Positions 13,991 to 14,022 of a stretch of DNA of 49,620 nucleotides are shown in pieces. The first letter of the stretch is position 1. The number at the start of each line of letters is the position of its first letter. The notes beneath the pieces were generated by a model. It saw only the letters and a list, made by a program, of their open reading frames with translations. It was not told the origin of the DNA and made no database searches. This DNA is from a virus, in the IMG/VR virus record IMGVR_UViG_3300027674_000005, positions 1 to 49,620 of that record. One strand, 5' to 3'. The translations under genes were made by a program, and so were the position numbers.

Positions 13991-14022
13991 GGGGGGGGGG
14001 GGGGGGGGGGGGGGGGGGGGGG
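13991..14022 (+). repeat. homopolymer run of 32 G
   Basis: An uninterrupted G32 tract, then A and GGGG. It is flanked by ordinary sequence on both sides and lies 134 bases before the first late gene. The tract can form stacked G-quadruplexes. The exact length is probably unreliable, since polymerases slip on such runs. Confidence 0.85.

Follow-up and report, generated by a model that had tools for sequence, protein, structure and literature searches.

The 32-base G homopolymer in this viral genome is, as judged by alignment with its relatives, the distal half of a conserved element that consists of one or more G-runs followed by (C/T)AA(A) and lies on the terminase strand. We propose that this element is a cis-acting terminase recognition site of the pac/cos type whose G-tract is unstable in length, an inference from sequence that we hold with a probability of about one in two. 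The DNA analyzed, hereafter the window, spans an entire IMG/VR virus record (49,620 b). Rereading its letters bore out the initial annotation, given that the G32 tract is present at 13991-14022 (+) and is followed by A GGGG CAA (14023-14030, +), the proximal half of the element at ordinary length. An order-1 Markov model covering both strands expects 9e-13 G runs of 32 or more, which places the tract far beyond chance, and it is the only G run in the window longer than 6, the next longest being 6. The 11-base tandem repeat that had been described ahead of the tract also exists (13807-13831, 2.3 copies, ~160 b upstream), and there is no evidence that ties it to the G element.

Close relatives carry the same element at ordinary length. 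At the homologous place, L009 has GGGGTGGGGGGCAAA and L010/L014 have GGGGGGCAA, each followed by CGCGCGAAA as in the window, where the sequence reads G32AGGGGCAA; the runs of the close relatives are 4-6 G compared with the assembled 32. The CGCGCGAAA box, common by alignment to L009, L010, L011, and L014, lies at 14037-14045 (+) in the window, and TTTGAC follows at 14053-14058 (+), +24 from the AA, in an alignment column that reads TTTGAC in L009 and TTTAAC in L010. The close group made up of the window, L009, and L010/L014 also has a box of its own, GCGCGAAA, ~9-12 b past the AA. The window thus retains the G-run, CAA, GCGCGAAAA, and TTTGAC and is without the C box and T-tracts described below. 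No G12 was found anywhere in seven related records, and the exact right flank of G32 was found in no other viral contig. In L014 (3985-4062) and L010 (3742-3819), a tRNA-Pro (TGG) gene sits directly after the G element and before the small HTH gene; no tRNA was found in the window.

The element lies where gene direction changes. Genes in the window run leftward from 1 to 13.6 kb and at the right end, and rightward from 14.15 to ~45 kb, and the rightward block encodes a presumed small terminase (terS), the large terminase TerL (phrog_38), a portal, and the major head protein. The small HTH gene that had been called after the tract was recovered as a 59-aa HTH-like ORF (14156-14335, +), the first gene after the element, with an HTH_7 match (E 0.0024) short of the Pfam cut-off. 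The next ORF, of 202 aa (14332-14940, +), is a presumed terS named by position only, with no PHROG match; both small ORFs are conserved in G001, G002, and G003. TerL itself occupies 14927-16381 (+; phrog_38 E 7e-89; ORF listed from 14837, ATG at 14927). On the other side, the closest conserved leftward gene encodes 104 aa (13085-13399, -). Gene order in G001 (52,679 b) and G003 (47,880 b) is collinear with the window on both sides of the tract, which rules out a chimera falsely joined through poly-G. The two ends of G001, and likewise those of G003, have ~100-190 b in common with a few mismatches by eye, so both maps look circular. Searches of the window DNA against phage records and of its TerL against the PDB returned no match. 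Two further features of this genome were recorded. A GIY-YIG nuclease gene (16390-16845, +; Pfam E 3e-7) lies between TerL and the portal and is unmatched in G001, G002, G003, G006, and G007. The family A DNA polymerase is split over two ORFs (47240-49603, -), with the exonuclease and the start of the polymerase domain at 48338-49603, the remainder at 47240-47956, and a 187-aa ORF (47775-48338) between the halves; the identical split occurs in G001 and G003.

The element is linked to the terminase genes. Relatives were gathered by TerL alignment, which kept 80 of 397 viral contigs and 80 of 272 genome contigs. Of the 160 loci kept, we looked at 82 (78 viral and 4 of the 80 from genome contigs), together with the window, L149, and L015, for a total of 85; L012 and L013, which start at or inside TerL, were left out. 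In the 221,262 b upstream of TerL, the G-run/AA pattern occurred 33 times on the TerL strand (31 of the 85 loci, many of the others ending before they reach the region) versus twice on the other strand, and the 410,576 b downstream of TerL held 3 and 4 matches. The exact 18-base form of the element, AGGGGGGTGGGGGGMAAA, was present in 60 viral stretches, and its mirror control of reversed letters was present in 0. Searching these 60 with HMMs of two TerL groups located TerL in 34, and in all 34 it was on the same strand and downstream of the element. Because one HMM was built from 9 of the 60 loci, the rate of finding TerL is inflated for those 9, while orientation is unaffected. Among exact-form stretches with at least 4.5 kb downstream, TerL was found in 20 of 25; 26 of the 60 were without TerL, 5 of them with at least 4.5 kb downstream. 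A PHROGs scan of ten ORFs of exact-form loci identified 6 as large terminases (5 phrog_2 and 1 phrog_5653), 2 as phrog_332 connectors, and 1 as a tail protein, with 1 unmatched. One counter-example is L359, where a TerL-like ORF is on the opposite strand; L312 has the same motif sequence as L359.

The element is found in phages with different terminases, beside the terminase genes and on their strand, at a distance from TerL that varies from ~0.75 to 3.2 kb. Its position relative to terS differs by lineage. In L307, terS (phrog_2538) comes before the element and TerL after it. In L357 the order is the element, a direct repeat, and a gene that corresponds to one in L349 with a terS match (phrog_1482). 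The L357 repeat (8590-8680), directly behind the G element, consists of two direct copies of ~41 b that include a T-tract and resemble binding-site repeats. Placement before or after terS, depending on lineage, is easier to reconcile with a packaging site than with a promoter or an origin at a gene-direction switch.

The initial annotation had offered a packaging or termination structure, or a slippage hotspot tuning late expression, and had seen a promoter-like sequence of the first late gene here. Packaging is the best supported of these, through the position beside the terminase genes, the shared strand, the different terminases, and the recurrent expansion of the tract; the late-promoter idea is not supported. 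Despite a TTGACA at 14054-14059, a scan of 13400-14400 for sigma-70 promoters (two hexamers, 16-18 b apart) returned 0 sites (shuffle mean, 0.5), and 0 intrinsic terminators (G+C-rich stem plus T run) were found in the same interval. A broader role in transcription control, in which a regulator binds the element or an R-loop/quadruplex ends transcription there so as to time the terminase/late operon, would accord with an element that is mostly intergenic, lies upstream of rightward genes, and is directly followed in the window by the HTH-like ORF. We regard this role as quite unlikely, given that the region has no sigma-70 promoter or terminator, that an Rfam scan of 13000-15000 found no RNA family, and that the distance to TerL varies so widely.

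The element might instead be a replication origin, with transcription through the G-rich strand leaving a stable R-loop or RNA:DNA quadruplex as a primer for the family A polymerase, and with downstream AT-only blocks serving as unwinding elements. The phage does have such a polymerase, the control region is divergent, a GC-skew minimum and an AT-skew switch lie near 14-16 kb of the window (gene direction explains these too), AT-only blocks stand between the element and TerL in relatives, and two G-runs one base apart recall mitochondrial CSB II. Yet the L307 group has the element inside the cluster of rightward genes, with terS before it and TerL after it, and overall the element is linked to terminase genes and not to replication genes, so that an origin appears improbable to us. 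The AT-only, low-complexity blocks were observed between the G element and TerL in the AT-rich relatives L165, L186, L208, L220, L222, and L223, and contigs often break there. We also considered contig breaks upstream of TerL as evidence of a cos site, given that 48 of 78 loci begin at a contig end there; this was rejected, since what lies beyond the break, in unbroken relatives among the matches listed, is often an AT-only block.

Several isolates carry the element in the expected place. Cronobacter phage Ss1 and the Vibrio phages VA-RY-3 and PVA7 have it on the terS strand, in the gap that immediately precedes the presumed terS; Alcaligenes phage QDWS535, Microcystis phage JY08, and the metagenomic genome MW202796 have it upstream of TerL. 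In 11 isolate records with related terminases (BcepC6B, HTVC010P, Hodr, MEP301, Mx8, Y3, Pmp11, Rollin, SI2, HTVC023P, and RW), no element was found near TerL on the TerL strand. Four records were ambiguous: RHph_TM27A has only G6 matches without an AA end, Pag-Yong1 has G5TG5 and no AAA, HTVC034P has a G6 hairpin, and MW202785 has a G6 within a gene, ~2.7 kb ahead of the first ORF with a large-terminase annotation. Counting G5NG5 in 12 records gave a single place in 8, more than one in 3 (VA-RY-3, G013, and G014), and none in MW202796, whose element has another form. VA-RY-3 also has a second G13 run, far from its terminase genes (MW900438.1, 35247-35259, -). A literature search found no paper on phages QDWS535 or VA-RY-3, and the passages searched in the literature naming phage Ss1 say nothing on termini.

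Downstream of the G-run, many of the elements share a spaced layout. When 69 elements less than 70% alike downstream were anchored on the first AA after the G-run, peaks emerged for C-rich boxes (+28 to +33) and for T-tracts (+42 to +45, and again +52 to +55), and they did so in each of two separate sets (38 and 31 elements). Layout statistics were based on 66 elements less than 60% alike and 1000 shuffles. CC at +27 to +35 was present in 42 of the 66 (shuffle mean, 20.6; maximum, 34), both T-tracts in 19 (mean, 2.0; maximum, 7), and the C box with both T-tracts in 13 (mean, 0.5; maximum, 4), so the observed layout exceeds all 1000 shuffles. The window has none of these three features, and L009, L010, L152, and L153 have the C box only; the element of the window therefore cannot be claimed to be functionally identical to the T-tract form. 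Under one energy model that allows quadruplexes, the window, L167, and Ss1 are predicted to form one, and L009 is not.

If the element is a packaging site, the terminase would recognize, and perhaps cut, concatemeric DNA at it to start packaging. The small terminase or an HTH partner may bind the element, and the motor could be positioned by the G-strand, folded as a quadruplex or acting as a stiff purine tract. We further propose that the tract changes length by slippage, given that constraint appears limited to the CAA-proximal end and the spacing that follows. The homologous G element in the same gap of relatives supports this model. Several observations weigh against it: numerous contigs continue across the element, and their ends were not seen to cluster at any exact position; the window is without the C box and T-tracts; the terS of its lineage is named by position only; the TerL-like ORF of L359 is on the opposite strand; TerL was not found in 26 exact-form stretches; and no element was found near TerL on its strand in the 11 isolate records.

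A long G tract in the element is recurrent in several distinct phages and not unique to the window. A search for G15+[AC]AA matched at least 120 stretches, and among those listed, four have both a strong TerL match 1.1-1.4 kb downstream on the same strand and an uninterrupted G run in the element: L449 (G18, preceded by G20) and L424 (G21), both in the interior of the stretch, and L423 (G18) and L395 (G16), both close to a stretch end. In L423, L424, and L449, aligned blocks are 65-75% identical, and TerL is 37-40% identical to that of the window. L435 has a G15 and a same-strand TerL, and because A's flank the run on both sides, it also matches the mirror control. TerL matches of L499, L504, and L472 were weaker or farther away. 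In the mirror control (87 stretches, 80 of them placed), the same-strand cases besides L435 were L472, with a match 6.9 kb off, and L551 (E 4e-10). The G32 of the window, as assembled, is the longest tract met in the element. The earlier statement that such a run is very rare in phage DNA needs qualification: G26+ runs occur in at least 120 viral stretches, mostly close to stretch ends (100 of 131 runs listed within 150 b). Among the G26+ stretches listed, the AA end was found in 0 of the 9 that have TerL.

Whether the run is truly 32 bases long is a matter separate from function. The element could be real and its length inflated by poly-G reads or assembly, with a true distal run of ~4-10. 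The absence of G12 from the seven related records and the crowding of listed G26+ runs at stretch ends would agree with inflation, and poly-G read ends do exist, since one pipeline is described as trimming G homopolymers from them (PMC11584781). Against inflation, the run in the window lies away from the contig ends with conserved flanks to its left and right, and G16-G21 tracts occur in this element in independent phages. Dark-cycle tails are expected to put C-runs at the left end of a stretch and G-runs at the right, and that orientation was not in excess among the G26+ runs listed (43 versus 57 opposite). The marks of a poly-G read tail, a contig end and a far flank that is not conserved, are thus not those of the window, though its length may still be inflated; on balance we find this unlikely, if worth bearing in mind. 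Assembler word length was considered as the source of 32; run lengths in other stretches have no peak there. Among the runs listed near viral contig stretch ends, long G/C runs pointed inward as often as outward, so they are not all read-tail artifacts, and real homopolymers may be breaking assemblies.

Searches of the open-access literature turned up no account of an element of this kind, and the poly-G passages that they led to deal with poly-gamma-glutamate. If our reading is true, it would give a sequence handle on the packaging site for a wide set of uncultured phages lacking known genome ends, help in placing genome ends in metagenomic contigs, a natural series of G-tract length variants, and a role for quadruplex-capable DNA in phage terminase action that can be tested.

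Among known systems, cos sites of the lambda, P2, and HK97 types, which yield cohesive ends, adjoin terS, are often G-rich, occur once per genome, and are composite, with a cut site and binding sites towards terS. The element is alike in its place next to terS, its G-richness, its usually single occurrence, and its composite build. It differs in that G-run length and spacing vary and contigs pass through it. Headful phages of the P22 and SPP1 types have a pac recognition site near or in terS, and their contigs stay continuous; the element resembles these in position near terS and in unbroken contigs, whereas it is mostly between genes and not inside terS, and to our knowledge its sequence is unlike any headful pac site. 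Mitochondrial CSB II likewise has two G-runs parted by one base and is length-variable, as is the element, which goes with terminase genes and not with a mapped origin. In herpesviruses, pac1 contains a G-quadruplex motif, pac2 is ~60 nt away, and cleavage occurs ~34 b from pac1 (PMC13386867, PMC7864422); the G-run and T-tracts here span a similar distance. We take this likeness as a lead and make no claim of membership; the window itself is without T-tracts. By this analogy, and as a speculation that we consider very unlikely, several phage lineages might share a two-part, pac1/pac2-like terminase signal, in which a quadruplex-capable G-tract of hypervariable length would be followed by a cut zone ~30 b away and by T-tracts spaced one helical turn, cleavage falling between them. 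Cutting, copying, and rejoining of the ends would then lengthen and shorten the G-tract, making it a telomere-like, hypervariable genome end.
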